Of a stretch of 64,000 nucleotides of DNA, positions 2,051 to 60,900 are shown one piece after another (the first letter of the stretch is position 1; every line of letters begins with the position of its first letter). The stretch covers positions 10,945,226-11,009,225 of the forward strand of contig NC_087074.1 of assembly GCF_026151205.1 (NCBI RefSeq). Direction: 5' to 3'. The notes beneath the pieces are model-generated. The model was not told where the DNA came from and did no database searches. It was given only the letters and a program-made list of their open reading frames with translations. The position numbers were made by a program, and so were the translations under genes. This DNA comes from Bolinopsis microptera. Lineage: Eukaryota; Ctenophora; Tentaculata; Lobata; Bolinopsidae.

Positions 2051-2107
2051 TGAAACAGGAAGCGAGGGGTACTGAATACTGATAGTAAGGAGATTTAGAA
2101 CCGGGGG

Positions 2108-2114: not shown

Positions 2115-2593
2115 CCCCTCCCTGCTTCCCCTTCTGTTGTTTTAACTAACATTCTCCATTACTTTTAATTTTATCTAATGCTTGTTTAGCAGGGTCTACA
2201 TGGTAAATCCCATCAATTTGACGTACTACCATTTAGCATGAAAGGATTTATAATTGTAAGAGATTACCGGAACATTTTATCCGTTAAATCTAATCTGATG
2301 TGATAGATTTGGAGTACCGTGATCACGATTTTTGCGAGATTAATTCACTTTGAATGTCATAATGCATAATTTTGTGGTGAAATTAGATGTTTTTACTCGG
2401 AATGATCATTAGACACAAAAAGCGGCTGAATTTAACCCCATCCCTCCTCGGCCTCCCCAAAAAAAATAAGAAAATTGTCTAATAATAATAATTCGGGTTA
2501 CTATTGTTACCTCGTGTAATTGCCATGGTAACCTCACGCAGTTGCCATGGTAACCTTATTCAGTTGTTAGGATAACATATTATGTGATTGCAG

Positions 2594-3234
2594 GAGATAC
2601 GAGCCAAGGAGAACAGTTTAGTGGATCAGCTCCAGGAGCAGGAACAACTCACTGTTTTCTACGCTTACCTCAACCTTTCTTCTGAAAGGGATGTCAAGGT
2701 AACACTAACTTTATTAATGAGACTGCTAATGATAGGTTTTGTAACGAGGAAAAGTTGGTAAACGTGGTGTTAGCAGTCGAGTAACCAAAAGGCTCGGCAC
2801 TGTAATATCACGACTACCAATGAATCTGAGTGTACAAAACAGAATTGTGCGAACGAAATCATAGGACTAGGAGCATTCGTATCTTCGTATGTTTGGAGTG
2901 CTTGGCATCGCGCGGCACGTGACCTTGGAAACTGCAGTCACATGGTGCCTACGTGTGCTATTCTACCTTGAGAAAATGTTACCCACATGCTGTTCTACCG
3001 TGAGAACGGTGGGAACAAACCGCAAATATTGTAACTTTAACTGCTAGGTGTGAAATAAAAACCGAATATAACCCACCACTATTATCTTTTTAAATAATTA
3101 CTACTTTTAAACATTTCGCCGTGTATACAGTGTGTTGCTTGTTACAGCCGTAATTTTATCTTATATCTTATCTTATCAAAGATATTTTTCAGGAACACGA
3201 ATTGACTGAGGACTCTTTCTCTGATGATGAGTAA
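2594..3234 (+). CDS. last two exons of an unidentified gene
   Basis: Exon 2594-2698 (acceptor TTGCAG, donor GTAACA, phase 0) encodes EIRAKENSLVDQLQEQEQLT followed by VFYAYLNLSSERDVK. Exon 3193-3234 (acceptor TTTTCAG) encodes EHELTEDSFSDDE and then TAA. The charged, Gln/Glu-rich start suggests a short helical or coiled-coil C-terminus with an acidic tail containing a possible casein-kinase-2 site. No ATG or upstream exon can be assigned with confidence, so the gene probably begins left of the window, with the minus-strand secreted gene inside one of its introns. An AATAAA at about 3598 could serve its 3' end. Family unknown. Confidence 0.5.
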
Positions 3235-13594: not shown

Positions 13595-13633
<39 letters not shown>

Positions 13634-19600: not shown

Positions 19601-22600
19601 CAGTATCACAATCCCGATCCAAGACTTCCCTGTTTCCTCTCCCGGAATTATATCCTCCTCCCTGTCTACCTCCTCCTCCTCCCTCCCCTTAACCACTCAG
19701 TCTCCCTCTACCTCACACGCCAGTGTCTCCACTGAAAATACCACCGTGGAGGCGTCTCAACGTGTTGCGAGCGGTGAGGCATCTCAACCTGAAATATCTG
19801 TTATTTCCAGCAACTTCAACACATCTGATATCCTAACCGCAACAACCCCTCGGCCGTTTGTCAAATCAGCACCTCCCCCAAATGTTACAATAGCTTACAA
19901 CAAAGAACCCGCCAAGCCCACCTTCAACCCTGACATGCGCCCTGTTATCAACATTCCATCTCTCTTCGACTCTCCCGCCTCTCCTGCTGTGACATCACCT
20001 CCTGACACTCCAGTGACGTCATCAAGTGAGCCTGTGACGTCTGCATCACAACAACCCACCACGTCACGTGCCAAGTCCCCCGAGCTGCCGCCGCGCAGTG
20101 AGTACAACATCCTCTCTGATATGACCAGTCTGGAGAACTTGCTGGATATTCTGAAAGAGAACAGCCCCATCAGAGACTCTGGGGCACTGAGGTGCACGTG
20201 CAAAACCATGCTGCGCTGTAATTTACACGACATAGGGTAAGCTATCTTATACTGTTTATCTTTGAGTATTCAACTGGGTTAATTAAAGTCATCAATTAAC
20301 TAATCGATTAGACCTTTATCTAATAATAAGTTTTTATAATTAGATATGATTAATAGTCCGCACCATAACATATTCTCACTCCTTCAGACCAGGCAAGAAG
20401 AGACAGCCTCCCCTGAAACCCCGCAAGGTACTTACCAGGAATGACGATGCTCCTAAACCTGCTAGAAAGAAGTACTGCTACAGAGGGTCCAAAAAACCAT
20501 ACAAGTTTATCCCAGAGACTTTCAAGGATTGTCAGTTGCCTGCCAACGAGGATACCGTCATTGGAACAGGTTCTTATCTTCTCTTACTTTACCTTTTTAC
20601 CTCATTTAGAACCGGATTATAAAACTAAGAACTACTTTATATTGTGGTTGAAACAGAGTAAAGCACCTTATCAACCCCTAACATGGGGGTCTTCTACACT
20701 AACATCTTACAAGTATATCCTCCCTCAGCTGGTCACCCGAACGCTGCATCAGTAGCAGCCAACACTACAACAGTGAAGAAAGGAAGAGGAGGGCGCAGAT
20801 CGAGAGGAGTGAAGCCAGTTAACCTGCCGCCTCCCCCTCCTCCTCCAATTACCTCCATGTCTCACATTCCCTCTGTCATGCCCAGTGGTGTAGGTCTGAC
20901 ACCCATCTCACCTGCACCGGAGCCGCGAGGTAGCAACTCTGGAAATACTATCAACCTGGGTAAGTGCAGTCAGATCTTGGCGCAGTAAGGGATCGTTCAC
21001 TGATTATATTATACTTACCGCTGCTGCAGGGCAAAATAGACTATTGAAACCTCGTTTAGTTGATTATTTGAACTTTGTTTTGTTCTGCTCCCAACACGTC
21101 AACCTAGTTGTTAACGGTTTAACACTTGATATAGACAAAATCTGAACTTTAAAGTTTGTTCACAAATTAAGGGGTTTCCGGTTTTTACGAACTCTTAAAT
21201 GTTTTCTACCGGTCCCGTCAGAATGGGGCCCTAGAAATGTGGCCGAAATTGAATTCTCATTTTTGGACGGCATATATGCAGTTGAACATACATCTAGGGC
21301 TTGAAAATAGGTTATTAGCATCACTGAAGCACTATATACCACAAGTTACACAACCTCTATATGTGCTAATCTGTATAAAATGTGCTAGAAGATAAGAAGT
21401 CTGTTTCGTCCGCGCATTTTGACCACATTTTGATGGCCCCATCCTGACGGGACCGGCATAATACCTATTACGGAGTTTGACAGAAAAGAGGATGAGTCTG
21501 AAATTGCTTATGTAATATATATGAACGATCCCCAGTACTGTAAAATAGCTTGCTTATTTCAGTGCCGGTAATTTAGTTTCTGATTATAATAAACGGATTT
21601 TGTAACCTGGTAATGCCTATAATAACAATCTGCTTGACGGACATCTTCCCGCCTCCTGACAATGAAATATTGCTCAAACTTGCATATTATTACTGTAGCC
21701 CTCCCTCTTCTCTATTTTCTTGGGTTATAGTTACACGGTTTATTAATCTTATATTTGATCCTTCGAACAGCTGTTGAGCAATGAAACGCAAACATAATCT
21801 TAGCAAAATGAATATATTTCTTTTATCTTCAGCATTTAATCAGTCACATAATCTGAGAATATCAATGGTTAGTTTGAAAATGTCAAAAATTCTCATCAAA
21901 AATGTAGTTAAGTCTCAAAAAATTAATTTAGCATCTCGTAAAAATGGAATAGTTTAAAATCGGAACAAAATTAATGGCATATACTATAATAATGTGGAGT
22001 CTGCAGTAGTTCATTAAATCAAAAAGACGCAATTCAAAAATTGATAGACTGCATATATAAACAAAAAATGGACGATTTAAAAATAAAATTCGGGACACCA
22101 TGAAAAATTAGCTTCCAGAAACGGAATTCACATTGTTCAGGCCAAACGGATAAAGTGTCTTCAATTTGTTAATATAAAACTGTTCTGACTTTCTAATATT
22201 ATCTGGGGATGTAGAACACAAAATATCAAAATGGAAACTTTCATTGAAAACAGATCTCTCCCTCAAATTATGAACTGAAAAAAGATGTGACCTTAAAACA
22301 TTCTCGTCATCAAAATCTCTGTGGCTCTCAACATTCCCCTTACTACTCGCCTCTAAAATCTCATAATATTTACTGCGATGACCATTCACACGTTGGCTGA
22401 GGCTGGTGACTGTTTTTCCCACGTATACGTTATTAACAGTACAAAGTTTGCACGTCGCGCCGTACACAATGTTGCGTGTCTTACAGTTACCACCTTGAGT
22501 TCTGACTGAGTGTCCATTATTGGAGACCATGGAATTGCCACTCACAAGCTGACAAGTTTGGCAGGGTCTGCCTTTCTTCTTCTCACCAGGTTTGGTGCAT

Positions 22601-25600
22601 GGGTCAGTTGTTCTTGACTCTGAACCTAAGGCAAGCTTCTTTCTCTTGAATAAAGTGTCCTTTAAGTTAGGGGCTCGCCTGGTCACCACTTGGAGTTTAG
22701 GGATCCTCTCAGGGTTCTCACTGCTCCATGTACGGCTATTTGAGATGATGTTACTGGCCTCTTTAGCCTTTTCCTTGGTTTCCTCATAGCCCGCACCGAA
22801 TGTAACAATCCATGGTGTGAAAGAAGGGGGACCCTGATCCTTTGCCTTGTACTGTAAAGTTCTTGGTATCGATCTGACATCACTGATGACCTCTCTCACC
22901 ATATCAGTAGGATATGAAGACCGTTCAAAAAACAACTGAAGCTCTGCCAATCTCTCATCCAGCAAGACGTCATCATTGATTATCCTTCTGTATCGAAGTG
23001 CCTGTGAGAAGACTATACTCCGGAAGGTATGTCGTGGATGGAAACTTGAGAATTCAAGATACCTGTTGGCGTCAGTAGGTTTCCTAAACAGATCTGTTGT
23101 GAGTCTCCCTCCAACAAACTTGTACTGAATGTCCAGGAACTGAGTGAACTCCGTGATTGGTTTCACTTCGTATGTAATATCTAAGCCATAGTTATCAACC
23201 ATCTTACTGCGTAATGACCCTACCCATTCTTCAAAACCAATCATAGAACCTCTCCACATACCTTGGCCCGAAATATCATCCACAAACCGATCAAGGTTCT
23301 TGAGCTCCTCTGGTCTAACAACCGGGTCGTAAACCAGACTCTTTAGGACAAAGAACAAAGCAATGTTACCGCAATCCACTGAATTGATACCTCCAGTGGG
23401 TACACCGTTAACGACCTCATACCAGTTGTCTGCATTCTTCAAGACTGCCGAATCAAAACTAAGCTGTATCAGTCCCTTCAGCCAAGTCCTGAACTCCTCA
23501 GACCAATCTGGTCTACACGACTCCATAGCATCATCTAAGGCTGACATCACCAAGCTATGTTGCAGAGAATCGTATAGAGAAACAATATCAATACTGAAGC
23601 TGATCCAAGTATCGACTACTTGTCCGGAAGCTGCCAATTCCTCGAGTTTTATGAGAGCTGCAGTTGAATCTTTAACAAGATCTATACAGTAATCCCTGGC
23701 AAGAGGTCCCAACCACTTCCAAACAACAAACTTATCTGATCTTGCAGTTACTCCTCTAGAGAGATCAGTCACGAATCGACTGGGTGGAATCTTTTTCTCT
23801 CTAAGTTCAGTCTCAGTCAGCTTGTGAATTTTCAGTAATGGGTAACCATACGGAATATCGGGCTTGACTAGATCTGAAGTGCTCTGTGAAAGAGTGTCCC
23901 GATCAGACTTCTGAATCAAACCAACCACACACTTAGACTGTTCACCACTTACATACTTCCGCTCCAAACCAGATGACCACAGCTCTAACAACCTCCCTCT
24001 CAAAGATCCAGTAGGATCAGTTTGCAAAGGTCTGTATCTCAAAGGGTCCTCAACTTTGGCAGAAGTGATATCCTTGATTATCTGAGGGGTGACAATGATT
24101 ATCGCACCGCCCTTATCAGCCGATGTTATGGCTATTAAGCCATCCTTGACAGCCTTCTTCAACCACATATACCCTTCACTCTCATAGCGGTTCATATTAG
24201 ATTCAACTTTTCTGGGCTTGAAGTTGTCTACAAAATTGACAATGTTGTCTTTTGCAGACTTGATGGCTGGGTCTTCCAAAGAAGTACAAGGAGCTGTTAC
24301 TGGTTTCTTCAGTAGCTCCATAGGAACTTCGTTATCCCGTGCTGAGTTCTTAAAAACAGCTTTCCATGCTTGTTTGTTGGCAGCATTGTACCCATCTACT
24401 TTGAACTGCATCTCATCAAAATCCGGGCAGGGTATCCATCCAGGACCATACGAAAGGACCGCAATGCTATAATCCGGAATATCAATGTCTGTCAGGTTAA
24501 CAACAAGATTTCTCTCAAGAGCTTCCTTGGCTTTCTTCCTCATTGCCTGCTCTTTCTTCCTGTTCTTCCTGGCTTTTGCTTTGAGCTTTCTCTTGAGCTT
24601 CTTAGCTGTGACCTTCCTTGTAAACTGATTCACTGAAACTGCTACTACCTTCTTCTTAGGCTTCCATTCTGAAAATTTAGTGCCATCACACTCCTCTAAA
24701 AATTTCATCTTCTTTAAAAGCTTCTTCTGTTGGATGTGAAGCAACTTGCTATCTTTGATAAGTTCAGGAGAGTCAGGATGATCTCTCTGAATATCAGCAA
24801 TCTGTTTCTTCAAGATGTTAATCTGCCTTGACTTGTTCTCGATAGCACGGAGGGTTGCTTTTGTTTCCACCTCCTGGAGGAGCGCACGAGCCTGTTCCTC
24901 AGGGAGAGCTTTCAAGCCACTGGCCCTTAAGGATTGGACAGGGCGCTTGGTCAACAGGCATTTCCGCAGAAGACTTAACCGATTGATTTCCAGATCATGA
25001 AAAGTGACCAAGTTTGCATTTGCATATGCTTCCTTAAGACAGTCCTTTAACATTTATAGGGTTCGTGTTCACCGATCAATGATGATACTGGACCAGTCTA
25101 AAGTAGATATGTGCTCAACTATGCTGCGTTCTGTAGATAGATAATCTTATATTTGATCCTTCGAACAGCTGTTGAGCAATGAAACGCAAACATAATCTTA
25201 GCAAAATGAATATATTTCTTTTATCTTCAGCATTTAATCAGTCATATTTAATTAATGTGGTACATTATAAAGCAGAAAAGGGGGTATAGAATATCTCATC
25301 TGATTAGCAACTCCCCACCTTACATTACATTACCCCTAGGCCCGCCCTATATCACCCTACATTACCCCCGCATAACATTACCCCCGCATAACATTACCCC
25401 TGCATAACATTACCCCTGCATTACCCCTACATTACCCCCGCATAACATTACCCCTGCATAACATTACCCCTAGGCCCGCCCTACATCATGATTTATAATA
25501 TTATAACCGTGTTAATTTCAGTGCCGGTGACTTCAGTCAGTGCCCCGAGCTTTGAGAACTCCAAGTTACTAAAAGCAGTTCCTATTGGTAATGGCCTGTA

Positions 25601-32488: not shown

Positions 32489-35400
32489 ATGGGAGGGACC
32501 AGCTCTCAGCTGGAGCGTGACATCGGGGCCGAGTATCCCCTAAACGAGCATTACTACGGGCTCGTCAACTTCGGGAACACCTGCTATTGTAACTCGGTCC
32601 TACAAGCCCTCTTCTACTGCAAACCCTTCCGAGACAAGGTAAATTACAACCTCTTCTTTTTTATATTAGCAAGTGTACATCTTCTACTGGTAGGCCCTCC
32701 GGGGCCAACTTTTAAAGACGACATATTTACAACAAGCACATCGGATGAAACCCGCGTGTCTAATATTATAACCAATTAAACAATGTTTGTAGGAAAATAT
32801 TAAACAAGGAATGAAGATATTTTCATGCATGAGGAAATCATGTTTCTTTCATCATGGATTATTAAACATCGAATTTACTGTAATTGTCTGAAAGGATATC
32901 TCATCATCTGTATTAGTTAAAATCATATACTGCACAACAACTAATGCGTTATTGATATACTACAAATTAGTCTCGGAGATAATAGTGAACTTTCTCCTCT
33001 CGGGGTGTAACATTGGTCTCACTTTCCACTGGTACACAATTGAAAGCATGTTAATCAGCAAGGTAAATAACTCCATTGTGGTGAAAATACTAGCCCCCAA
33101 AAACAGCCCCATAACACCCCCAATGTCACCCAACAAGTTATCAAAATCATACGCCACCACCTCTTCCACATCAGTAATGGAACTGGAACCGAAGAAAATG
33201 TCCACTTTAGCCATGTTCCTTGCCACGTCCTTGACGGTGTAGTTGAGGAAACGTTTGAACTTTTGTTTGTGTGAAGGACGAGTTTTCCAGGTGTTGAGTT
33301 TGTAGATGATCTCGGTTTCTGGGATAGGGTGAGCTGTAACAGTGCTCCTAAAGACTGTGTAAATACAGGCTTCAATGTCACAATCACAGTTGTGGTGTTC
33401 TGTGTTCACGTCCGCAAACTCTAGCACATACCTGGAAAGATCTAGGTTTTAGTAATTAATAACTCATTATATCGTTAACTTGAAGGACTGAGCTTAGATC
33501 GTTTGTAGGTTTACATCAAATTTGATAAACGTTTATTATATCTTCTAGCAGTTTAACTTGCATCACTTGTCCAACAGTTAAGGCCAGGGGGCAGGGGGGG
33601 GTCTTTATGAAATTTCTCTCGAAATTGATTTTATAGTTGTTTCTGATAGAGGGGAGTGATATCTATCTGCTGCTTTTGGTCCCATGGAAAAATATTGTTC
33701 CTAGCCGAATTTATTGCCGGTCAAAGGTCAGCGTGCATGTGTAATTGTATTGCGCGAGCGATTTTCAATCGCGCGCCCTGAAAATCGAGTCTAAAATTCT
33801 CCTCCTACATTTTTTGAGCATCACCTTGAAACTTTCAGGATATGTTCTAAGGACCATTTAAAAGATTCCATTCGATCAGAATTTTAAGATAGGCGCAATA
33901 CAATTACACATGCACGCTGACCTTTGACCGGCAATAAATTCGGCTAGGAACAATATTTTTCCATGGGACCAAAAGCAGCAGATAGATATCACTCCCCTCT
34001 ATCAGAAACAACTATAAAATCAATTTCGAGAGAAATTTCATAAAGACCCCCCCCCCCCCTGCCCCCTTAAGCGCTCATAATATTACGTTGACCAATGACC
34101 ATGTTGAAATGATGAAATGAATGAATAGCATCGTAAATAAGAGCAAAGTCCGCACAAGCGAACTGTTAAATAGTAAAAACTAAATAGTTAAGTAACTTAC
34201 ACATCAAATACCCCCATGGTAATAGTGTCTGTACACTTTATAGTATATCGTATTGTAAATTATAACAACTCTATGAATCCATTACATTCGTTGAGGCTAT
34301 GTAGTTAGAGACAGTTAACCTCGATGCTGCTCGGGTTGGCGAGCTCTACAGCTTTATAACTTTATTACTATACTACTAGTACTACTATCATATTCCTATA
34401 TTAGTAATATAGGAATAATATTATTACTATATTACTAGTACTATTATATTACTTTATTACTAGTATACGTTAATAGTATATTCCTATATTCCTATATTAT
34501 TGCTAGTACCATATAACTGTTTTATTATGGAACCTACTGTAAGTAAGCGTGTAGACTGCAATCAGCGACCTCCTTCAGGGTACACTCAGTGTAGTTGTAC
34601 ACATCGTTCAGGGGTGGAGTAGTGTTCAGACACCCACATGTCCTGTTCAGCATCCTGTCCCTGCAATCCAACAAACAAGTTGACTGATCGTACCTGCCAT
34701 ACCCAGACCGCACCCCCTGTTTCTCCGCACAGTGCTCCTTACTCGCGCGTATGTTCATGGTGTCCAGGTTAATGTAGTAGGCGTACCCCGGTGAGATGTG
34801 TATACCATTGTTTACTGAAGCTCCGTATCTCTCTGACTCGTGAGTGGCTAGCACCCAGCCTACATTGTCACGTGGGTCCGAGTACTCGTCTCTGTCAGCG
34901 AGGAAGATGAGGGATAACACACCGTAGTCACCACTCTTGCCGTGCAGGGTTCCTGCTGGGTTGATCCTGAAACAACTACCACTCACAAACTCCACATCCC
35001 GCTCGTAGTAGTCTAGCCCCATGTCTGTTTTATCACAGTATCTCATGTGTCCTTGTGTGCAAGTGATGAATGTGTCGTTGTGCATTTGAGCGCTGCGCAG
35101 TAGTTCCGCGTAAGTCTCGTTCTCGTGTTTGACCATCTCTGGGCTGTTCCAATTCAGTGAATGAAGCAGTTCGAAGTTGAAATTAGACACACCTCGCCAC
35201 CAATCCTTGAGCTCCGGCTTGTCGTCCAGATAAGTCTTCCTTATTTTGTTCTTGTTACAAGCAGTGATTGTGGGGAACTTCATGATAGCCGCTGCAGAGG
35301 CAGGGTGCATCTCATACCTGCTGGTAGTAGCTCCAGCAAGGTACTTTCTGACGCTGAGAGAGGCTCTGAAGATACAGAAGGTGACGGCGCTGACCCACAG

Positions 35401-38400: not shown

Positions 38401-41400
38401 TTTATAGCAAGAATCTTAAAACTAAAGGGGATGACAAGGAAAAGAGGAAGGAAAAAGAAGAACGGGATAAACAATTAATTAAAGTATTTATAGGAGTATT
38501 AGATATTGTAATTACAAGCTTCAATAATAAATCACTGACTAAAACTTCTAATTAAAATGACACTTGGTACGCTCGCCCATTTTCACTGGTCAGTCTGAAC
38601 TTCGGTTTAGCACGTTGTACACTTATTCACCTAAGTTTCAGAATTTGTTCAGTTTAGCAGAGTTAGTACCCGTGTTTCAATAAATCAAAAGATATCAGGG
38701 GAGTTCTTTACTAATGTTACGGTCATCTAGAATACCGAACTTCCTGAAAACGTTATCATATTTCCTCAGACAACGTTTAATGCCTTTAATCAGTCTATCA
38801 CGGCTATATCCTCTATCAATTAGAATTTTGAATATTTTGTGAAGATGGGAGGTAAAGATATCCAATCTAGTGCAGACATTACCATATCTAAGAACTTGAC
38901 TTGAAAAAACGTTGTAGCCAACCTCGGTTGGGATGTTACTGTGAGGAAATGTAAGGGATACAACATGAAAATTAAAATCATCAGTTTTGTTATACACTGA
39001 TATTTCTAGTCCTTCTGTGGAAATATTAATATTTAAATCAAGGTAGTTAATGATTTTATTATTGGAACCAGCTCGCTCCATCTCCAATGAATTAGGATAA
39101 ATATCTTTAATCAATTTATGAAAGTAAAGGTAGTTAATAATAGATAAATCGTCAACATATCGTTTATTATTGGATAATATCTTTGCTAATCCCATTTTCT
39201 TTTCCTGAAGTAAACGTTTCATATAATTAAATTCCTTTTTGCCAACAGTGAGATCAGCTAAAGGGGAACTTGAATTTCCACCCATAGGAATACCCTTGGT
39301 TTGTATGAATACAATCCCACCGAAGACGACATAAGTGTTATAAATAATAAATTTAACAGCCTCTTTTAGGTCATCTTGACTAAAGCAGGCATGAGAATCA
39401 TAGGTTTTATTGGAAAAGAAACATGTATTACTGTCTCTTTTAGAAATACAAATATATCTGTTACGGTCTGAAAATATTAAATCAACAACTTCATTAATCA
39501 TATTCTCTACTTCAATCAAGTCTAATCTGGTATAAAGAGTAGTAAAATCATAAACTTGTATATTATAAACATCGCTATTTTTGATAGCTTCAAGGAATTC
39601 ACTTGAGGAATCTATGCTCCAAAACATGTTTATACCGCTGTTGTTGTAGATGGCCTCGCAGTATTTCTTGAAGTATTTCCTCATTTAAGTTTCAGACAAC
39701 AGTTAACTTGGACGTTAAGTTGTTTCGTAACGCAAAAACGGGCACCTGCAATGAACCTCGCCTTGTAAGGGTTCTTATGAAGCTTAGGGTTCCAGAAGAT
39801 GCGTGCTAGTCGCAAGTTTTTATCTTCAACTTGTACATTAAATCTCTCCTTTAGACTCTCAGATATTTTATTGACATAATGAGTCTCGTCTTCGCTACAG
39901 GGTTTATATGTATCATTACCTATACATTCTAGAGTATTAGGATCAAAACCCATTTCATTGACAAGAGTTTTTACATAAAACTTTTTACAAATAAATGAAA
40001 AATTACCAGAAGCTTTGTCGATACTACAAATAATGTATTTACTTTTCAGCAATTTAAGACTTCTTTTAACATCATCTTTTTCCAGTGTGTTTTCTTTTAT
40101 TTCAAATGTTTCAGGAAAGTTTTTCTTGTAATATTCAATACGATTGGAAACTATTGATAACACTTTTTCCTTCCAATCGCTGAACTTTACTTCTTTTTGA
40201 CAGTACTTTCTACTTTTTGATTTTATAAATTTATCGACAGCTTCGGTAACTGACATATATATCTCATCTGGAGATTTAAATGTGGGAATCCTGTATTTAC
40301 AACCGTAGGAAAGTACTTCCCTAAGTTCAACATTATCAACAATATCTAAATTACCAGTAACTACATGTCCATGAGGAGGATAATTGAAAGGGGAGGAGTG
40401 ACAATCGCATGGACTACCTAAAATAGATTTAATATCAGAAATAGAAAGTTTCTTTAAGAATGAAGCATAGTTACAAATAGAAAGACTTATAGGATCATTA
40501 TACTCATAATAAATCTGTAATGGTGTAAAAGACTGAATCAAAATGGGAAGCAAATCAATGACTGAAGTGTCAGAGAAAATAGATTTTAGGTTAAGATTAT
40601 CAATGAATTTGCAATTAAATGGAACAATTATAAATTCTCTATTACTGGATTCAGATTTGTTCTGATGGTATTTGGGGGAAAATGTTGAACAGAAAGAGGA
40701 ACATACGTTGTAAATCAATCCTGAATTATTTTGACTCAAAGAGTAGAGAGTGTCTAAATCTGATAAGCTATAACATTTTAATGTTTTGTATATGGAATGT
40801 TCTGAAGAGATGTTATCTTTCAGCCTGTTAATATCAGACTCTATGGTATCCAGAGACTTCTTAGGCTGAACTTTCTTCTTTCCATTCCCTCTGCCACGTT
40901 TGTATCGAGCAATCTGTCCACTAAAATAATTCATAACCCGATCTTGGGAGATGTTGCCCGTTCCTTTCTTCTTGTCATTAAGACCAAGAGGGAATGCTGT
41001 CCCAAGCTTCTCTATCCAGTAATCCTCCAGGAGAAGTAAATCATTTTTGACATCGGTGGACATGTCAGAATCAACATAATCTACAATCTGTATGGAAGCA
41101 TCTGAGAAGACGTGACCAGGAATATTAAAATGTTCATATAAAAATGTGGATGATTTGGCTTTGACACAATTTCTGTGGCCATTGACTCTTTTATGAAGTG
41201 GTTGAGTTGTTTCTCCAACATATTGTTTTTTACAGGTAGAACAGGTAATAACATAAATAACATTATTATTAGTTTTACAATTAAATATAAAATTTGTATG
41301 TCCAAAGATAAAATCATTATTAAAAGTACTGCTCCTAAATGTATTAACAGGATTAAAACTGTTACAAGTGAGACAACCTCTACCATTGCAACATCTAAAA

Positions 41401-44400
41401 GTGCTAGAAAAGACATTACTAGGGGTAACCCATTTATTCAAGGATTTTGAGAAAAATTTACCATTACGTTTAAGTCAAGAAGGTAACATCATCCCTTTCG
41501 GCGTTTCCGCCTAGACCCAACGACTCGAGATAGGCCAAGGACAACGGGTCGGACATCAACCTATAGCTATTGTCATGGGGCTGCCATGATTGGGCGGGCG
41601 TTAGATGTCATGAACCTAAATAGTTCTCCCACCGACGCAATGTAGCCTGGCGAGATTCTTCGCGACCATAAAAATCTCTTAGAACCGGATCTTGCACTGC
41701 CGCTGTTTCTCGTACCGTAGCATGGCGGACAGCTCACGCCAGAAAATGAAATAAACAGGTAAATACAGGATAAATCAGGAGATGTATGTACAACAACAAG
41801 ACTTCAAGGAGGGCGCCCAAGAAAACAAAGATCAACCAAATCTCGGAACCAATGGCCGGGAGAGATATAAATGTAATTATAGAGCAATATCAAGAAAAGC
41901 TATCAATTATGTATCCAACGGGGCGGAAGAACCGACCACCAGTACTTGATACCATGATACGGACGTAATCTAGGTAAACTATAGGTAAAAATATAATATT
42001 AATCATAAGCTAAAATGTACTAATCTTTGTATTCTAAATGGGGGAAAAGGAAGAAACATTGTCAGTCAGTCGAGAAAATTGTCAGTCAGGCTATATGGCA
42101 GCTTTGTAGATGTTGTGACTATGCTAGTAGTGGTCCCAGGCTTGCGACTGGAATTGCGGTGTTAAATCGATTTAATGGTACCAACGATCCACCTCCCACT
42201 TGTTGTTTGGTACTTAGCATTAATAGTGTTAGCTGTAGCCATTTATAGCAAGAATCTTAAAACTAAAGGGGATGACAAGGAAAAGAGGAAGGAAAAAGAA
42301 GAACGGGATAAACAATTAATTAAAGTATTTATAGGAGTATTAGATATTGTAATTACAAGCTTCAATAATAAATCACTGACTAAAACTTCTAATTAAAATG
42401 ACACTTGGTACGCTCGCCCATTTTCACTGGTCAGTCTGAACTTCGGTTTAGCACGTTGTACACTTATTCACCTAAGTTTCAGAATTTGTTCAGTTTAGCA
42501 GAGTTAGTACCCGTGTTTCAATAAATCAAAAGATATCAGGGGAGTTCTTTAATAATGTTACGGTCATCTAGAATACCGAACTTCCTGAAAACGTTATCAT
42601 ATTTCCTCAGACAACGTTTAATGCCTTTAATCAGTCTATCACGGCTATATCCTCTATCAATTAGAATTTTGAATATTTTGTGAAGATGGGAGGTAAAGAT
42701 ATCCAATCTAGTGCAGACATTACCATATCTAAGAACTTGACTTGAAAAAACGTTGTAGCCAACCTCGGTTGGGATGTTACTGTGAGGAAATGTAAGGGAT
42801 ACAACATGAAAATTAAAATCATCAGTTTTGTTATACACTGATATTTCTAGTCCTTCTGTGGAAATATTAATATTTAAATCAAGGTAGTTAATGATTTTAT
42901 TATTGGAACCAGCTCGCTCCATCTCCAATGAATTAGGATAAATATCTTTAATCAATTTATGAAAGTAAAGGTAGTTAATAATAGATAAATCGTCAACATA
43001 TCGTTTATTATTGGATAATATCTTTGCTAATCCCATTTTCTTTTCCTGAAGTAAACGTTTCATATAATTAAATTCCTTTTTGCCAACAGTGAGATCAGCT
43101 AAAGGGGAACTTGAATTTCCACCCATAGGAATACCCTTGGTTTGTATGAATACAATCCCACCGAAGACGACATAAGTGTTATAAATAATAAATTTAACAG
43201 CCTCTTTTAGGTCATCTTGACTAAAGCAGGCATGAGAATCATAGGTTTTATTGGAAAAGAAACATGTATTACTGTCTCTTTTAGAAATACAAATATATCT
43301 GTTACGGTCTGAAAATATTAAATCAACAACTTCATTAATCATATTCTCTACTTCAATCAAGTCTAATCTGGTATAAAGAGTAGTAAAATCATAAACTTGT
43401 ATATTATAAACATCGCTATTTTTGATAGCTTCAAGGAATTCACTTGAGGAATCTATGCTCCAAAACATGTTTATACCGCTGTTGTTGTAGATGGCCTCGC
43501 AGTATTTCTTGAAGTATTTCCTCAAAAGTTTCAGACAACAGTTAACTTGGACGTTAAGTTGTTTCGTAACGCAAAAACGGGCACCTGCAATGAACCTCGC
43601 CTTGTAAGGGTTCTTATGAAGCTTAGGGTTCCAGAAGATGCGTGCTAGTCGCAAGTTTTTATCTTCAACTTGTACATTAAATCTCTCCTTTAGACTCTCA
43701 GATATTTTATTGACATAATGAGTCTCGTCTTCGCTACAGGGTTTATATGTATCATTACCTATACATTCTAGAGTATTAGGATCAAAACCCATTTCATTGA
43801 CAAGAGTTTTTACATAAAACTTTTTACAAATAAATGAAAAATTACCAGAAGCTTTGTCGATACTACAAATAATGTATTTACTTTTCAGCAATTTAAGACT
43901 TCTTTTAACATCATCTTTTTCCAGTGTGTTTTCTTTTATTTCAAATGTTTCAGGAAAGTTTTTCTTGTAATATTCAATACGATTGGAAACTATTGATAAC
44001 ACTTTTTCCTTCCAATCGCTGAACTTTACTTCTTTTTGACAGTACTTTCTACTTTTTGATTTTATAAATTTATCGACAGCTTCGGTAACTGACATATATA
44101 TCTCATCTGGAGATTTAAATGTGGGAATCCTGTATTTACAACCGTAGGAAAGTACTTCCCTAAGTTCAACATTATCAACAATATCTAAATTACCAGTAAC
44201 TACATGTCCATGAGGAGGATAATTGAAAGGGGAGGAGTGACAATCGCATGGACTACCTAAAATAGATTTAATATCAGAAATAGAAAGTTTCTTTAAGAAT
44301 GAAGCATAGTTACAAATAGAAAGACTTATAGGATCATTATACTCATAATAAATCTGTAATGGTGTAAAAGACTGAATCAAAATGGGAAGCAAATCAATGA

Positions 44401-47400
44401 CTGAAGTGTCAGAGAAAATAGATTTTAGGTTAAGATTATCAATGAATTTGCAATTAAATGGAACAATTATAAATTCTCTATTACTGGATTCAGATTTGTT
44501 CTGATGGTATTTGGGGGAAAATGTTGAACAGAAAGAGGAACATACGTTGTAAATCAATCCTGAATTATTTTGACTCAAAGAGTAGAGAGTGTCTAAATCT
44601 GATAAGCTATAACATTTTAATGTTTTGTATATGGAATGTTCTGAAGAGATGTTATCTTTCAGCCTGTTAATATCAGACTCTATGGTATCCAGAGACTTCT
44701 TAGGCTGAACTTTCTTCTTTCCATTCCCTCTGCCACGTTTGTATCGAGCAATCTGTCCACTAAAATAATTCATAACCCGATCTTGGGAGATGTTGCCCGT
44801 TCCTTTCTTCTTGTCATTAAGACCAAGAGGGAATGCTGTCCCAAGCTTCTCTATCCAGTAATCCTCCAGGAGAAGTAAATCATTTTTGACATTTTTGAAA
44901 TGTTTATTGAATTGAACATAATATTCTAATTCAAGTTCTAATACATATTTTAATACTGTTTAATTTCAGTTTCTAAACTACTTGTTGAACTCAATATCTG
45001 ATTTGTTGCGGAGCGAGTTTGACGACGAGGAGAAGGAGAAACTGAAAAGGACTTGGGTTGAGGTAAATTAAAATATTTGAAACACGCGTACTGTCAATCG
45101 TAAAACCCTGTACATATACCAAACTTACTGACACACTAGTTTTAACACTGTGTCATATTTATTAACTATTTAATAATGTTAATATTATGCGCATCTTGTA
45201 GATCGGAGATAAACTCGGTGTCATCCGAACATTGCGTCATAACCCAATTATAGGGTCTACCAAATTATCACCTGTCAATATTGATGGTGGATCTTCTTTA
45301 AGCTGTTCCGTGTTCAATTGTTAATAGTTGCCTCAAAATAATGATCTGACAGCTTTATCAACTCCACCCGAAAGCATAAGGTCAAGTTCGGAGACAACCT
45401 GTACATAAAATGAGTCACTAATTACACTTATTTCACTGCCATATACGGTAAAATTAATTATAATTCCTCTGAAAGTCCAAGGGGTACAGGCTCTTCAGAT
45501 ATTATACTCCTAACCTTTCTATAATGATATCTGGGTTCAAAATTTAAATAACTCAACCTTGGTGGAGACAGTGGCCACCTGAAAATTACAAAAATAAAGG
45601 AGCTGTAAATCACTTATGAAAAAAATATTTACTCCAAATTTCACAATTTAAAGTTACGTAAGACAGGTGGGTACTCAAAAAGTGCCGGTTGAGCAGGTTT
45701 GTCTGCTCAACACAGGTGGAGCAGCTCACTGACTACATGAGCTAATATAAGTGACTAGAACTTACCCTCTCATGCTTTTTAATTGCTCCAAAGTCCTAAT
45801 ATTTAATATTATGGGTTATACCAATCATATTTCATAGAATAGGATCCTCAGAATCGGCTCAACCGAGGTGGAGACAGCATAACATGCAGTTCAAAATCTG
45901 TTATTCTGTAGTTTAGGAGCTGTAGAGTGACTGTGGCAGTCCATTTGCGATACCAATGATTCTAAATCATCTACCAACTCATATTACAAGGCATCCTTGC
46001 TGAAAAGTACACTCAACATAGGTGGAGACTCAAATTTGGCAAATTTGGGCGTAAATTTGACCTCAGAAGTCAAGGTTCTCCACCGCGGTTGAGTGGTTGA
46101 TGGCTAGTTTGATGAGTTGTATACATGCTAAAGGGTCACCCAATGTTATTCCTTCCAGAAATCAACTGCCAAAGCTCAACTCAACCCGGTGGGCCAGTTT
46201 TAATGCATTTTTTAATGTTTTGATGTTTAATCAACAATTTCTCCACCTTGTTGAGCACCTTTTCACAACTTTGATAGTTTTTTCATTTGCTAGAACACTT
46301 TGCTTTAAAACAGAAGGGGTGACAGTTTTATGATCCCCTACAGTAGCAGTTAACAGAGCAGATTAGAATTAGTGATAAAACCAATGAATTTAGGCATGTT
46401 TGACAGGCTTTTTACTGTTTCTTAATGAAAGATCTCCACCCTGTTGAGCGTCAATGGCAAAAACAAAATTTAACGGGAAGTAGAAAAGGCCGAGACGCAA
46501 CTTTCTAGCTAACCTAGAACTCTCTAAACCTTTCTCCACCCCCGGTTGAGCAGATTTGAAAAGTGCATTTAATTTCTCCACCTCGGTTGAGCACTTAGAT
46601 AAAATATTGATAAAACCATCATATTGCAAATTTGATGTAGTTTGTGTTACCAATAACCTTTTCCACCTTAATCAAAAGTTTCTTCAACCAGAGCCAGTCT
46701 CCACCTTAAATCTCCACCTTTTAAGGGTTTGTTTAATACCACCTGTATCGGCTCAACCGTTCAACCTTTTAATTTTTTTTTTTTACTCAGAGAAAGTCCT
46801 GAAAAATGTCTTGTCAGCCATATAATCAGGGAGTTTCAGTCTGTGTTGAGCTGGCTCCACCACACACTTCTAAAAAAGTAAAAAATGTACAGGTTGTCTC
46901 CGAACTTGACCATAAAGCTTCAACTCAACAAATCAGACAAATCTGTTTAACTTTAAATCTGTGAATAAACGCTCCCGGGTATGGCTGCATTTCTGACCTA
47001 ATTCGTGCATTTCTATTTAATGTATTTGCAAATCCTGACAGTTAGAAATGTGCTTGAACACTAAAAACTAACAGTGTTTGGAGTAGGTCAAACTACTTCA
47101 ATGAACGTCAAAACCTTTGTCAAATCTCTGATAGATGATATTTTGGTTCAGGTTCATAACTTATATTAGGGTACTTTTCAAAGCATTTTCACCCTAAATT
47201 CTCCTCCGGACTTCTTGTAAATATACAATTTACCTTTTATATTTATTTATTATTTGTTATTATTTATTTCATTTCATTTCATTTCATTTCATTTCATTTC
47301 ATTTCATTTCATTTCATTTCATTTCATTTCATTTCATTTCATTTCATTTCATTTCATTTCATTATATAAATACTTTTGTTCACTTTTACACATTTGCTCA

Positions 47401-54200: not shown

Positions 54201-54966
54201 GACAAAACCATAGCTGATAGCACCTGACACGTAACACATCACGTGTCGCCCAGTACAGCGAGAGTGACACAGAAGAAGGGATCCAGAACAAGGTGACGGC
54301 CGTGAAGTGCAGGACAAGACTGACGAGTCTGCAAACTCTGCAACATTGCATTTCCTGTGTTCACAAGAGCAGGACCTTCAGTGTGTGGTCCGCATTTCTC
54401 CCTCAGGACCCTACTGCTGGTCAGTTTACAGCTTCATCATTCGCTTTAACTCCGAGTGACTTACAGAATTAGAGCTAGAGGAGCTGAATTCAGCTTTAAA
54501 GGGGGGGGGTGTCACGTCCGTCTATGTCCGCTTGTCTCATAGAATCCAAAAAGGACAGGACATAGGCGGACATAGGCGGACATAGGCGGACATAGGCGGA
54601 CATAGACGGACATAGGCGGACATAGGCGGACATAAATGGACACCTAAATTGCTAAATAAAATGTTCAATTTTTGCTGTTATAGGGGGATCATGTTTTTTG
54701 TCCGTTCGGTACCCTATATTTTCAAAACGGACAAAAAATAGAGCGGACAAAAATGGACAAAAACGGACAAAAATGGAAATAAAATTTAGATGCTTCCTCC
54801 TCCTACTCTTCCTCCTCCCCCTGGGTCTTCCGGGGGGGGGGGGGGGATCATGTTTTTTTGTCCGTTTTTGTCCGTTTGGCAGCTGTATTTTCAAACGGAC
54901 AAAAAATAAAGCGGACAAAAACGGACAAAAACGGACAAAAAATAACAAAAATTGAAATAACATTTA

Positions 54967-54998
<32 letters not shown>

Positions 54999-57900
54999 CT
55001 CCTCCTCCTCTTCCACCTTCTCCTCCTCCTCCTCCTCAGCCATCCTCCTCAGTCCTCCTCAGTCCTCCTCCTCTGCAGTCCTCATCATCCTCCTCAGTCC
55101 TCCTCCTCCTGGGTCCTCCTCCTCCTCTTCATCCTCCTCCTCTTCCTCCTCAGTCCTCAGTCCTTCTCCTCAGTCCTCCTCCTCATCCTTTTCGTCAGTA
55201 CTCCTCCTCCTCAGTCCTCCCCCAGTCCCCCTCCTCCTCCTATTCAGTCCTCCTCCTCCTCCTCCTCCTCCTCAGTTCTCCTCCTTCTCATTCCTCCTTC
55301 TGAGTCCTCCTCATTCCTCCTTCTGAGTCCTCCTCCTCCTCTTTGTCCTGAGTCCTCCTCCTGGGTCCTCTTTCTCCTCCTCCTTCTCAGTCCTCCTCCT
55401 CCTCCCTCTCAGTCATCCTCCTCAGTCATCCTCCTCAGCCATCCTCCTCAGCCATCCTCTTCAGCGATCCTCCTCAGTACTCCTCAGTCCTCCTCCTTCT
55501 CAGTCCTCCTCAGTCCTCCTCCTCAGTCATCCTTCTCCTCCTCCTCCTCCTCCTCCTCCAGGGGGATCCTGTTTTTTATCCATTTTTTCCGTTCGGAACC
55601 CTATATTATCAAAACGGACAAAAAATAGAGCGGACAAAAACGGACAAAAACGGACAAAAAATAACAAAAATGGAAATAATATTTAGATGCTTCCTCCTCC
55701 TCCTCAGTCTTCCTCAGTCATCCTCCTCCTCCTCCTGAGTCCTCCTCCTGGGTCCTCCTCCTGGGACCTCCTCCTCTTGGGTCCACCTCCTCTTCATCCT
55801 CCTCCTCTTCCTCCTCAGTCCTCAGTTCTCCTCCTCAGCTCAGTCCTCCTTCTCAGTCCTCCTCCTCATCCTTTTCCTCAGTCCTCCTCCTCAGTCCTGC
55901 CCAGTCCCCCTCCTCCTCCTATTCACTCCTCCTCCTCCTCCTCCTCCTCCTCCTCCTCCTCCTCCTCCTCCTCAGTCCTCCTCCTCCTCAGTCCTCCTCC
56001 TTCTCAGTCCTCCTCCTCCTCCTCAGTCCTCCTCCTCCTCAGTCATCCTCCTCAGTCCTTCTCCTCCTCAGTCCTTCTCCTCTTCCTCCGCCTCCTCAGT
56101 CTTCCTCATATTCCTCAGTCCTCCCCCAGTCACCCTCCTCCTCAGTCCTCCCCCAGTCACCCTCCTCCTCATCCTCATCCTCCTCATCAGTCCTCCTTCG
56201 CCTTCTCAGTCCTCCTCTTCAGTCCTCCTCCTCCTTTTCCTGATTCCTCCTCCTCAGTCCGCATTCTCCTCCTCAGACCTTCTCAGTCCTTTCCCCAGTC
56301 ACCCTCCTCCTCATCCTCCTCTGAGTCCTCATCAGTCCTCCTTCTCCTTAGTCCTCCTCCTCAGTCCTACTCCTCCTCCTCCTGGGTTCTCCTCCTGGAT
56401 CCCTCTTCTCCTCCTCAGTCCTTCTCCTCCTCCTCAGTTATCCTCCTCCTCCTCCTTCTCCTCCTGGGTCCTCCTCCTTCTGCTCACCAGTCCTCCTCCT
56501 CAGTCCTCCTCATCCTCTTCATCCACTTACTTCTCCTCCTCATCAGTCCTCATCAGTCCTCCTCCTCCCAAGTCATCCTCCTCCTCCTGGGGCCTTTTCC
56601 TGTGCCCTCCTCCTCCTGGGTCCTCCTCCTCAGTCCTCCTCCTCTTCCTTCTCCTCAGTCCTTCTCCTCCTCAGTCCTTCTCCTCTTCCTCCTCCTCAGT
56701 CTTCATCCTCCTCAATCCTTTCCCCAGTCACCCTCCTCCTCATCCTCATCCTCCTCATCAGTCCTCCTTCTCAGTCCTCCTCCTCCTCTTCTTCCTGGTT
56801 CCTCCTCCTGGTTCCTCCTTCTCCTCAGTCCTCCTCCTCTTCCTGGGTCCTCCTGATCCTCCTCAGTCTTCTTTCTCCTTCTACTCCTCAGTCCTCCTCC
56901 TCCTCAATCCTCCTCTTCCTCCTAAGTCCTCCCCTCCTCAGTCCTCCTAAGTCCTCCCATTCTCAGTCCTCCTCCTCATCAGTCCTCTTCACCAGTCCTC
57001 CTCCTCAGTCCTCCTTATCCTCATCCTTCATCTCCTTCCTTCATCTCCTTTCTCCTCCTCATCCTCCTCGTACACCTCCTCATCAGTCCTCCTCCTCACT
57101 CCTCCTCCTCCTCGTCCTTAGTCCTCTTTATCAGTCCTCATCAGTCCTCATCAGTCCTCCTCCTCCCCAGTCCTCCTTTTGGGGCCTTTTCCTGGATCCT
57201 CCTCCTGGGTCCTCCTCCTCTTGGGTCCTCCTCCTCTTGGGTCCTCTTCCTCATCCTTCTCCTTAGTCCTCCTCCTCCTCAGTCCTCCTCTTGAGTCCTT
57301 CTTCTCCTCCTCCTCCTATTCATTCCCCCTTCTCAGTCTCACTCCTCCTTCTCAGTCCTCCTCCTCCTCTTCTTCCTGGTTCCTCCTCTTGGGTCCTCCT
57401 TCTCCTCCTCAGTCCTCCTCCTCTTCCTCCTCTTCCTGGGTCCTCCTGATCCTCCTCAGTCTTCTTCCTCCTTCTACTCCTCAGTCCTCTTCCTGCTCAA
57501 TCCTCCTCTTCCTCCTAAGTCCTCCCCTCCTCAGTCCTCCTAAGTCCTCCCCTTCTCAGTCCTCCTCCTCATCAGTCCTCTTCACCAGTCCTCCTCCTCA
57601 GTCCTCCTTATCCTCATCCTTCATCTCCTTCCTTCATCTCCTTTCTCCTCCTCATCCTCCTCGTACACCTCCTCATCAGTCCTCCTCCTCACTCCTCCTC
57701 CTCCTCGTCCTTAGTCCTCTTTATCAGTCCTCATCAGTCCTCATCAGTCCTCCTCCTCCCCAGTCCTCCTTTTGGGGCCTTTTCCTGGATCCTCCTCCTG
57801 GGTCCTCCTCCTCTTGGGTCCTCCTCCTCTTGGGTCCTCTTCCTCATCCTTCTCCTTAGTCCTCCTCCTCCTCAGTCCTCCTCTTGAGTCCTTCTTCTCC

Positions 57901-60900
57901 TCCTCCTCCTATTCATTCCCCCTTCTCAGTCTCACTCCTCCTTCTCAGTCCTCCTCCTCCTCTTCTTCCTGGTTCCTCCTCTTGGGTCCTCCTTCTCCTC
58001 CTCAGTCCTCCTCCTCTTCCTCCTCTTCCTGGGTCCTCCTGATCCTCCTCAGTCTTCTTCCTCCTTCTACTCCTCAGTCCTCTTCCTGCTCAATCCTCCT
58101 CTTCCTCCTAAGTCCTCCCCTCCTCAGTCCTCCTAAGTCCTCCCCTTCTCAGTCCTCCTCCTCATCAGTCCTCTTCACCAGTCCTCCTCCTCAGTCCTCC
58201 TTATCCTCATCCTTTATCTCCTTTCTCCTCCTCATCCTCCTCATACACCTCCTTCTCCTCATCAGTCCTCCTGCTCACTCCTCAGTCCTTCTCCTCCTCC
58301 TCCTCCTCGTCCTTAGTCCTCTTTATCAGTCCTCATCAGTCCTCATCGGTCCTCCTCCTCCCCAGTCCTCCTCATGGGGCCTTTTCCTGGGTCCTCCTCC
58401 TCTTGGGTCCTCCTCCTCTTGAGTCCTTCTTCTCCTCCTACTATTCATTCCTCCTCCTCAGTTCTCCTTCTCAGTCTCACTCCTCCTCAGCCCCCCTCCT
58501 CTCCCTCCTCAGTCCCCCTCCTCAGTCCCCCCTCCTCCTTTTCCTCTCTTTCATCTCTCAATAATTTGTTCAATTTATAATTATTGTTGGTGTTATTGTT
58601 AACATAATTTATTGTTATATACTAAAATGTTTTTAAGCGCATTTGAGTCTGACTCAAAATGTGCTCAAGAATCTTTGTGTTTAACAAAGTTTTACTCTGC
58701 AGTAATAAAACTTTTCATCCCTTTTTATGTTATTAAAAAATGTGTAGACTAGGTATTCTTTGTGCCTAATTGAAGATTAAAAGTTTGAGAAAGGACCATG
58801 GTCATTAACCGGGCTACCCATTTCTGCAGATAGCCTGTTACAAATTGTGGAGAAAATTTAAATCAAAAGTTACAATTTTTGTCCGTTTTTGTCCGTTTTT
58901 GTCCGTTTTTGTCCGTTTGGCAGCTATATTTTCAAAACGGACAAAAATTAACGGACAAAAACGGACAAAAACGGACAAAAAATAACATGATCCCCCCCCC
59001 GTCTTCCTGATCTTCCTCAGTCCTCTTCCTCCTCCCCTCCTCAGTCCTCCTCAGGGACAAAAGGATTTCGCGATTATTTCGGCCAAAAATCGCGGTACCG
59101 CGAAATTTAACAGGCTATACATTAAACTATACATAAAATTTGTCGCGGAGAATGGGAAATTTCGCGATTTCGTACATGCCGCGAAATCCTTTTGTCCCTG
59201 GTCCTCCTCCTACTCCTCCTCCTCGTCCTCAGTCCTCCTCATCAGTCCTCAACAGTCCTCCTCCCCAGTCCTCCTCCTCCTGGGTCCTCCTCCTTGGTCC
59301 TCCTCCTCCTCTTCATCCTCCTCCTCTTCCTCATCAGTCCTCAGTCCTCCTCAGTCCTCCTCCTCATCCTGAGGTCCTCCTCCTCCTCCTCCTCCTGGGT
59401 CTTCCTGATCCTCCCCAGTCCTCTTCCTCCTCCCCTCATCAGTCCTCCTCCTACTCTTCCTCCTCGTCCTCAGTCCTCCTCATCAGTCCTCAACAGTTCT
59501 CCTCCTCCCCAGTCCTCCTCCTGGGGCCTTTTCCTGGGTCCTCTTCCTGGGTCCTCCTCCTCCTGGGTCCTCCTTCTCCTCCTCAGTCCTTCTCCTCCTC
59601 CTCCTCAGTCCTCTTCCTCCTCTTCCTCCTCCTCCTCCCTCTCAGTCATCCTCCTCAGCCATCCTCCTCAGCCATCCTCCTTAGTCCTCCTCCTTCTCAG
59701 TCCTCCTCAGTCCTCCTCCTGAGTCCTCCTCCTCCTCAGTCATCCTCCTCAGTTCTCCTCCTCCTCCTCCTAGGTCCTCCTTCTGGGTCCTCCTCCTCCT
59801 CCTCTTCCTGGGTCTTCCTGATCCTTCTCCTCCCTTTCAGTCATCCTCCTCAGTCATCCTCCTCAGTCATCTTCCTCAGCCATCCTCCTCAGCCATCCTT
59901 CTCAGCCATCCTCCTCAGTACTCGTCAGTACTCTTCAGTACTCTTCAGTCCTCAAAATGTTTGTCCGCTAATGTCCGCCAATGTCCGTCCGAGTCCGCCA
60001 ATGTCCGTCCGAGTCCGCCAATGTCCGTCCGTGTCCGCCAATGTCCCAAAAAACACGTCCGTTGTCTCATAGAATCCAAAAAGGACAGGACATAGGCGGA
60101 CATAGACGGACATGACACCCCCCCCCCCCTTTAAATACTTGGTGACGACTCAGCGATAATGAGCATCTTATTGCAATTCAAAACTTCTATTATTTGTGAA
60201 AGTAGTTAGAATTGTGTTTCACGCCTGGACAAAAGTCATGAGGCAAAAGTTTTGGCCAAATCTCTCTGTTGCACCTGTAGGACTGTAGGAAATCATGTTT
60301 ACACAATTTGCATTTTACACCCATTTGTTTGTACCAAGATTCTATTTAATGAGTTACAAACCTTAGGGCCAAAAAATACACATTTTCAGTCTGATAATGT
60401 CAGTAAATGTTAAGAATAATACTTGTGCCAGGGTTGCTGAACGTGATACAGAAGGAACCGAACGTGAAGTGTAGGATAGCAGGATTAGGAGCTCTATCAT
60501 CTCTCATTGAGTCTGTTAAACACTACTTCGTAGCTGCTGACTCCAGACCTAGTAGGGATCATCTTAAACTGTCGATAGTCACGTTTTAAGCGTGTATTTG
60601 TTATTCATGAACTCACATTTTTATTTTATTATATGCAGGAATATAACATTTTCGAGAAAGATGAAAACTGCCTAGGCAGCAAAGCGACTTTGATAGGGCT
60701 TTTATATCTAACGGTATGATAATATTACTAGATCTATAGTTCCGATGCAATCTGTTAACCTGCATCCTATACAGGTAAAGGCAGAGCGGCCTACACCCCC
60801 TTCTCCCAGAGTCTAGCTACTGACCTGCTAACCCTTCACTCGGAGCTGTTGCTGCAGATACCTGGCTGTGTGCCAGCTGTACTTCCACACTTGTTCCAGT

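Follow-up and report, generated by a model that had tools for sequence, protein, structure and literature searches.

How does a long pyrimidine satellite come to lie in an intron between borders as exact as those of a transposon? We met this question in a 64,000-nucleotide stretch of the genome of the ctenophore Bolinopsis microptera (hereafter the window, whose own numbering we use), in which a 5.6-kb low-complexity block occupies a HEATR6-like gene. A reading made from the letters of the window alone, the sequence-only reading, had framed this block as a satellite array bounded like a piggyBac-type transposon. It offered two explanations: internal expansion of a miniature inverted-repeat transposable element (MITE), or transport of the satellite as cargo. 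We conclude with good confidence that the block belongs to a young family of non-autonomous DNA transposons of the cut-and-paste type, present in many copies and here called family A, whose permanent cargo is a pyrimidine satellite on the kilobase scale.

The block has inverted ends and belongs to a dispersed family

Alignment of the two ends shows that they are inverted copies: G9-TGTCACGTCCGTCTATGTCCG begins at 54501 and its complement ends at 60129, with TTTAAA directly outside both (54495-54500 and 60130-60135). The sequence-only reading had described this arrangement correctly. Element A therefore spans 54501-60129 on the plus strand, 5629 bp as found, with limits that agree with the genome-wide ends and the target site duplication (TSD).

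To see how far these ends are dispersed, the whole assembly was searched (264.65 Mb in 232 contigs, of which those labeled C1-C13 sum to 258.07 Mb, or 97.5%). An exact 15-base end pattern, GGGGTGTCAYGTCCG, occurs 388 + 367 = 755 times, and its reversed control not once. Queries with a left end (201 bases) and with a right end yielded 949 and 930 first-look candidates, respectively, and the best 40 of each were scored. The scored left-end places fall on 12 of the 13 contigs C1-C13, plus C107. From these searches we assembled 25 complete copies, comprising the window copy, 20 of the 39 other scored left-end places, and 4 pairs from the list of exact ends in which both ends have the left-type spelling.

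Low-complexity arrays are often misassembled, so we weighed whether the block might be a local inversion, a duplication or an assembly artefact. Two right-type ends (L044 and L046) do lead into arrays that look noisy by eye. However, the ends number 755, the scored places are spread over nearly all of the main contigs, and the copies that were read differ in their flanks and TSDs, which makes such an origin extremely improbable. The outcome that would have undone the transposon interpretation, ends found only here or in a local duplication, was not what the search returned.

A perfect 6-bp TSD abuts the terminal G-runs in 24 of the 25 complete copies and never extends to 7 bp. When left flanks were paired with right flanks of different copies, only 13 of 600 combinations matched. 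The consensus is WWTAWW: of the 24 duplications, 20 have T at the third position and 22 have A at the fourth. The duplicated target at the window locus is thus the 6-bp TTTAAA, identified by this series and by the borders of the nest described below, and not TTAA as had been supposed.

This series also bears on the class that the sequence-only reading had favored. Kolobok elements duplicate a TTAA target, as a piggyBac-type element would, and TTAA does lie within the TTTAAA flanks of the window; 7 of the 24 TSDs, this one included, contain it. It is absent from the other 17 (for example AGTAGA, TATAAT, AAAATA, TACAGA and AATGAC), and the duplication is exactly 6 bp, for which reason Kolobok was dropped. 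Furthermore, the termini of A run from G-run to C-run (GG..CC), whereas piggyBac termini are given as CC..GG in PMC10045372. A TTAA element of either kind is barely credible.

The G-runs themselves vary from 7 to 26 bases at the left end and from 8 to 34 at the right, with a left-right correlation of 0.29. A terminal run that ranges from 7 to 34 bases between copies is odd for a DNA transposon, and it raises the question of how a transposase finds the cut site. The adjoining end segments, by contrast with the runs, are nearly invariant: their mean divergence from consensus is 0.1% (25 copies), 0.4% (22/25) and 0.8% (18/25), the copies missing from the last of these being those that did not fit the search expression. 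Because the end segments differ by only 0.1-0.8%, we consider family A young.

Among the first 100 listed ends (all of C1 and C2:1-4.66 Mb), we found 43 pairs spanning 1207-6020 bp, with a median of 2592 bp, and 14 unpaired ends. At approximately 2.6 kb per element, 755 ends would correspond to about 377 elements and near 1 Mb, or 0.4% of the genome.

The satellite travels with the ends

The interior of A consists of TCC/TCCTCAG arrays and is 77% pyrimidine after 200 bases are trimmed from each end. In the 21 copies first examined (the window copy and 20 others), the interior was 72-81% pyrimidine without exception. The best-scoring pairs of arrays align at approximately 80-93% over 1.2-3.5 kb, several of them end to end, and the A array of the window is 81-91% like its best matches.

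We then asked where the array occurs, using a 37-base motif from it that has 333 matches genome-wide and 0 in controls. All 41 tested matches, those among 100 listed that fall within C1 and C2:1-4.66 Mb, belong to A: 31 lie inside A pairs and 10 lie inward of an unpaired A end. One listed match, C2:4655570, was left out because the last listed end is 1.8 kb short of it; the remaining listed matches fall outside the stretch. Of the 31 matches inside pairs, 22 could be oriented, and in all 22 the motif lies on the strand expected from the element; the remaining 9 sit in pairs whose ends share the same spelling. Family A therefore has its array between the ends in many independent insertions, as a satellite-carrying non-autonomous DNA transposon does, and of the two earlier explanations it is transport as cargo that the motif matches and the TSDs support.

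The other explanation, in which a small MITE expanded internally and the array grew separately in each copy, has some evidence in its favor. Both A ends share a core of 44 bases on the same strand, as expected if a short element had been duplicated internally, and length varies from 1.2 to 6.0 kb among the 43 listed pairs. Yet no copy genome-wide has 40-70 bases between inverted ends, and the shortest listed pair is already 1207 bp. In addition, alignments between arrays of the best pairs extend over most of the array, and 22 of 25 copies carry in the left arm an end motif of a second element, B, which in the window continues straight into the array. We consider separate expansion improbable.

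The same arrays produce spurious plus-strand open reading frames (ORFs) of 176-389 codons, rich in S, L and P, across 54858-60072 of the window, and thus constitute a hazard for annotation.

The window copy is a nest of three elements

In the window, three elements are nested, with borders exact to the base: A holds B and a hAT-type MITE. The sequence-only reading was right that TCC/TCCTCAG repeats fill the block, but the single array it pictured is in fact three nested insertions. All coordinates of A, B and their parts refer to the plus strand, which for both is the pyrimidine-rich strand.

The left terminus of A (54501-54569; G9 then TGTCACGTCCGTCTATGTCCGCTTGTCTCATAGAATCC...) is the segment with 0.1% mean divergence across 25 copies. 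It overlaps a subterminal 10-bp minisatellite, GGACATAGGC, found by repeat scan at 54558-54634 and followed by a left arm that is single-copy within the element (54635-54682). A B-like left end at 54683-54792 is fused into this arm and continues into the array, of which only a stub (54793-54831) remains to the left of nested B. The main remaining part of the array (59008-59955), interrupted by the MITE, is 89-91% identical to the copies L010, L028 and L014 over 713-888 columns. A subterminal 10/20-bp minisatellite, GTCCGCCAATGTCCGTCCGA, follows at 59962-60046 (repeat scan), and the element closes with the right terminus ...CGGACATAGACGGACATGACA C12 at 60047-60129, the segment matched in 22 of 25 copies.

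Element B occupies 54832-59000 (4169 bp) between two copies of the 7-bp duplication GTCTTCC (54825-54831 and 59001-59007). Its ends, G15 ATCATGTT... and ...AACATGAT C9, carry a G-run of their own, then ATCATGTT...GTCCG. Another complete copy, L033, is flanked by TAGCTTA, indicating from the two copies with both ends read that B makes 7-bp duplications. The right end of B is 100% identical over 138 bp in at least 13 places, the window included, among the best 40 of 920 candidates.

Within B, the first part of the pyrimidine array (54973-55560; repeat scan) is followed by a second copy of the B-type left end (55561-55691), similar by eye to one in B copy L034, and then by the main part of the array (55692-58540). 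The latter contains a tandem duplication of 593 bp with approximate limits 56820-58200. Between about 56851 and 57600, identity at a lag of 593 is 97-100%, which confirms the higher-order repeat of the sequence-only reading and places it in B; additional lags of 571, 581 and 602 suggest a third, shifted partial copy of the unit. An AT-rich right arm (58541-58870), near-identical by eye in L033, leads to the right terminus with 10-bp GTCCG/CGGAC subterminal repeats (58862-59000). B holds most of the satellite in the window, including the 593-bp duplication, and the block owes its 5.6 kb mostly to this 4.17-kb insertion.

The third layer is a 149-bp MITE of the hAT type (59052-59200; CAGGGACAAAAGG...CCTTTTGTCCCTG, with CAG..CTG ends), flanked on both sides by the 8-bp duplication GTCCTCCT (59044-59051 and 59201-59208). 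Without the two inserts and their duplications, A would measure approximately 1296 bp (5629 - 4169 - 7 - 149 - 8). In all nine A copies examined for this purpose (L009, L010, L013, L014, L032, L039, L041, L042 and L045), the array is continuous at both the B and the MITE insertion points, with small differences between copies, so that the stub to the left of B joins directly to the sequence from 59008 onward.

Similar nesting was seen by eye elsewhere. The B copy L034 contains at approximately 1863-3120 an element with inverted ends GCAGAGGCACATATTAGGTGCGG and a GC-rich minisatellite (GGGCCTGGGTCACGGTCCCGAAA), possibly one more satellite-carrying element. In L031 (C1:22612280-22614600), a MITE-like stretch with inverted ends ATACAGGGTGAGTTGAAAATAGTGTGTGGAAAGT lies at approximately 470-780 in the AT-rich arm of an A copy. 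L035, tried as a different B interior, was set aside, since beyond base 61 the query matched only its own place.

The array may have reached A from a B-type element

The B-like left end in the arm of A is 83% identical to the left end of B over 116 columns. Among the 25 complete copies of A, 18 carry the B-type motif exactly and 4 carry it with small changes. Since the array adjoins a B-like left end in most A copies, a B-type element is its most likely source. Most simply, an A element would have received a B-type element together with its array, and the composite would then have spread.

Unpaired ends revealed A-ended copies with other contents. Of the 14 unpaired A ends, 12 were read, in 11 stretches. 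Eight lead into the standard array (L037, L039, L041, L042, L044, L045, L046 and the second end of L043), the first end of L043 is cut short, and L040 has, by eye, an apparent insertion of a long interspersed nuclear element. The remaining two carry other cargo (L036, read further as L047, and L038, read further as L048).

In the 6 kb read of L048, which has A ends, there is no TCC array. Its left arm is followed by TATATTTCGCTAAGTAGGTACTG... (also quoted as TATATTTCGCTAAGTAGG...), and two TCC-bearing copies, L029 and L031, have a 36-base match (92%) to this post-arm sequence beyond their array. The cargo of L048 is at least 4.7 kb of a different satellite with a unit of approximately 250 bp. 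L047 is a 1.13-kb A-ended element that by eye holds about one such unit, and together they indicate that A ends have carried two satellites. The 250-bp satellite is rare: among the best 40 of 1252 candidates, 3 places including L048 cover most of a 1051-base query. It was observed at L048:1250-6000, within the A-ended element, and at L050:3101-3610 and L052:3250-3660, loci with hAT-like ends. A candidate further family, C, with G-run ends and 10-bp subterminal repeats AATGGCATAA, appears at L051:1530 and L052:2132.

A hAT6/hAT7-like superfamily is the best lead

Which transposase might move A and B? Several classes were tried and rejected. Canonical hAT elements need an 8-bp TSD, and A has 6 bp and B, judged from its two copies read at both ends, 7 bp. 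Helentrons are not known to make a TSD, and a Helentron (HINE) assignment was dropped in view of the terminal inverted repeats and TSDs of A. The IS3EU group fits A in TSD length (6 bp) and not in termini, which are TA..TA in IS3EU according to PMC10045372. Dada elements, as described in PMC3706591, insert in multicopy small RNA genes and lack terminal inverted repeats; A has inverted ends, and its window copy lies in an intron of a protein gene.

The best lead is a hAT-like transposase of the hAT6/hAT7 kinds. In its central TA, the TSD of A is like the targets of hAT elements, and elements of the hAT type have moved at this very locus, as the nested MITE with its CAG..CTG ends and 8-bp TSD attests. 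The groups hAT5, hAT6 and hAT7 have TSDs of 5, 6 and 7 bp according to PMC12730594, and the lengths in A (6) and B (7) fit the latter two. Nevertheless, A and B end in G-runs, unlike the CAG..CTG of the MITE beside them, and no transposase was tied to their ends. We put forward this assignment tentatively, as a possibility somewhat short of even.

A search for other ends with a G-run and GTCCG repeats gave 205 matches, of which many are shifted readings of a single place; the controls gave 1 and 3. Ends of a hAT-like type, CAGGGGTGTAGGAAGC, were found at 4 loci (L022, L050, L052 and L053). L050 also contains a hAT-like ORF with a match to DUF4371 (E = 5.2e-7, just below the cutoff). We did not assign this ORF to A or B, because it has no second close copy and its locus holds the 250-bp repeat together with hAT-like ends.

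Points against the cargo transposon, and a possible mechanism

Several observations weigh against our view of A as a mobile carrier of satellite. Its mobility is read from ends, TSDs and dispersal. The searches made linked no transposase or autonomous partner to A or B ends. A test of one inner base, which misses kinds such as L036, found non-standard ends at 4 places, all of them a single base away from the standard right type. For the L050 ORF, a second close copy was sought and not found, and the ORF adjoins a different repeat. One complete copy of the 25, L023, is the sole exception to the TSD rule, with an AATATT repeat two bases off the left G-run. The B-like left end was not found in L012, L016 and L023. 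Among the A-ended copies without TCC, the border of L047 is weak (its TSD reaches 5 of 6 bases when one C of the run is included, and not otherwise), and no TSD was seen at L049. The habitat of the array was sampled with a single motif and 41 of its 333 matches, and the B array of the window is only 73-77% like the arrays of other copies.

Giving these points their weight, we still hold to a satellite-carrying transposon, and propose the following mechanism. A transposase supplied in trans would recognize the phased GTCCG/CGGAC subterminal repeats, spaced at 10 bp, as binding sites, and would insert the element into a 6-bp target, WWTAWW, joining it just outside the homopolymeric G-run. With the element travels the whole array, whose length would change later by slippage or unequal exchange; slippage would also change the length of the G-run. 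Non-templated addition of C to 3' ends was considered as another source of the terminal runs. At the window locus, an ordinary A copy of approximately 1.3 kb entered the intron of the HEATR6-like gene, and the related satellite-carrying B, with its 7-bp TSD, and the hAT-type MITE, with its 8-bp TSD, entered the A array later.

The host gene and other repeats in the window

The sequence-only reading had placed the block inside HEATR6, and profile matches agree. An exon-like stretch upstream (54245-54474, plus strand, approximate borders) matches positions 2-38 of PF13251, DUF4042, weakly (E = 0.0089; 16.2 bits, below the curated cutoff of 27), and one downstream (60431-60574, plus strand) matches positions 44-82 and passes the cutoff (E = 1.3e-6). 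Since these are consecutive parts of DUF4042, which we take to be a marker of HEATR6, the block separates two consecutive exon-like stretches and appears to sit in an intron of a HEATR6-like gene.

The window contains other repeats. At 33578-34070 there is a MITE of 485 bp between two TTAA copies, with 178-bp terminal inverted repeats that are 96% complementary and runs of G8 and C13 near its ends; it is TTAA-flanked, unlike A. A 52-bp satellite (13950-16663; 52 copies at 95%) lies near a C33 run (13597-13629), with no transposon borders recognized by eye, and a 14-bp array, TGGTTACTGTTACC, spans 18175-18779 in approximately 44 copies. Long minus-strand ORFs at 22108-25053, 38695-41441 and 42536-44773 resemble, by eye, Penelope-like reverse transcriptases with GIY-YIG-like motifs. 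The second of these stretches (two ORFs) and the third are near-copies of each other. A Pfam scan, which covered only the ORF at 22108-25053 of the three stretches, gave no match.

Family A among satellite-carrying elements

Non-autonomous transposons that carry satellites are already established from oyster Helentrons (HINEs), Xenopus MITEs and Tetris. Like A, the Cg_HINE elements of Crassostrea gigas (PMC7492417) are dispersed and have a satellite-like central array that travels together with its flanks, and related elements share modules, as A and B do. They differ in having subterminal inverted repeats and a 3' palindrome, whereas A and B have terminal inverted ends with G-runs and TSDs of 6 and 7 bp. 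Their monomers measure 140-180 bp; the cargo of A and B is instead a degenerate array of pyrimidines that can reach several kilobases.

The miDNA4 and Xstir MITEs of Xenopus, described in a review (PMC12628747), resemble A as MITE-type elements with tandem arrays, and capture of a pre-existing repeat has been proposed for miDNA4, much as we suggest capture from B. However, miDNA4 is a Tc1/mariner MITE, and for A we found no MITE-sized form (40-70 bases between ends) in the genome. Tetris, a foldback transposon of Drosophila virilis (PMC4079207), is likewise non-autonomous, with internal tandem repeats that feed satellite DNA and with rearranged modular forms. Its repeats lie in the terminal inverted repeats and also form longer satellite-like arrays, whereas none of the 41 tested motif matches of A lay away from A ends. 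The CMITE group of MITEs in Acropora corals is similar as a new composite element formed by insertion, with an unusual interior, in an early-branching animal; its proliferation is tied, in PMC2872659, to piggyBac-like transposons, whose TSD A does not share. Judged by title, none of the open-licence papers listed by searches on ctenophore elements and satellites concerns family A, and the passages on ctenophore loops in PMC12221973 contain none.

A bolder proposal, which we think possible but doubtful, is that A and B represent an undescribed DNA transposon superfamily of Bolinopsis microptera, defined by terminal G-runs that can slip, by subterminal GTCCG repeats in phase with the DNA helix and by TSDs of 6 to 7 bp. 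Its members would be interchangeable vehicles for satellites, bearing the TCC array in A and B and the 250-bp array in a few A-ended copies. Transposons would then be the sole habitat of the TCC repeat, a satellite that lives by transposition and not in heterochromatin.

The hundreds of copies of A ends elsewhere in the genome indicate that the TCC-rich repeat spreads by riding on transposons. Wherever it was tested, this satellite occurs solely as cargo of a transposon. The family is young, its borders are precise and its nest can be read, which makes it testable where the array originated, how fast its length changes in each copy, and whether it can escape from the transposon. For the host, long UCC-rich arrays within introns may affect splicing.

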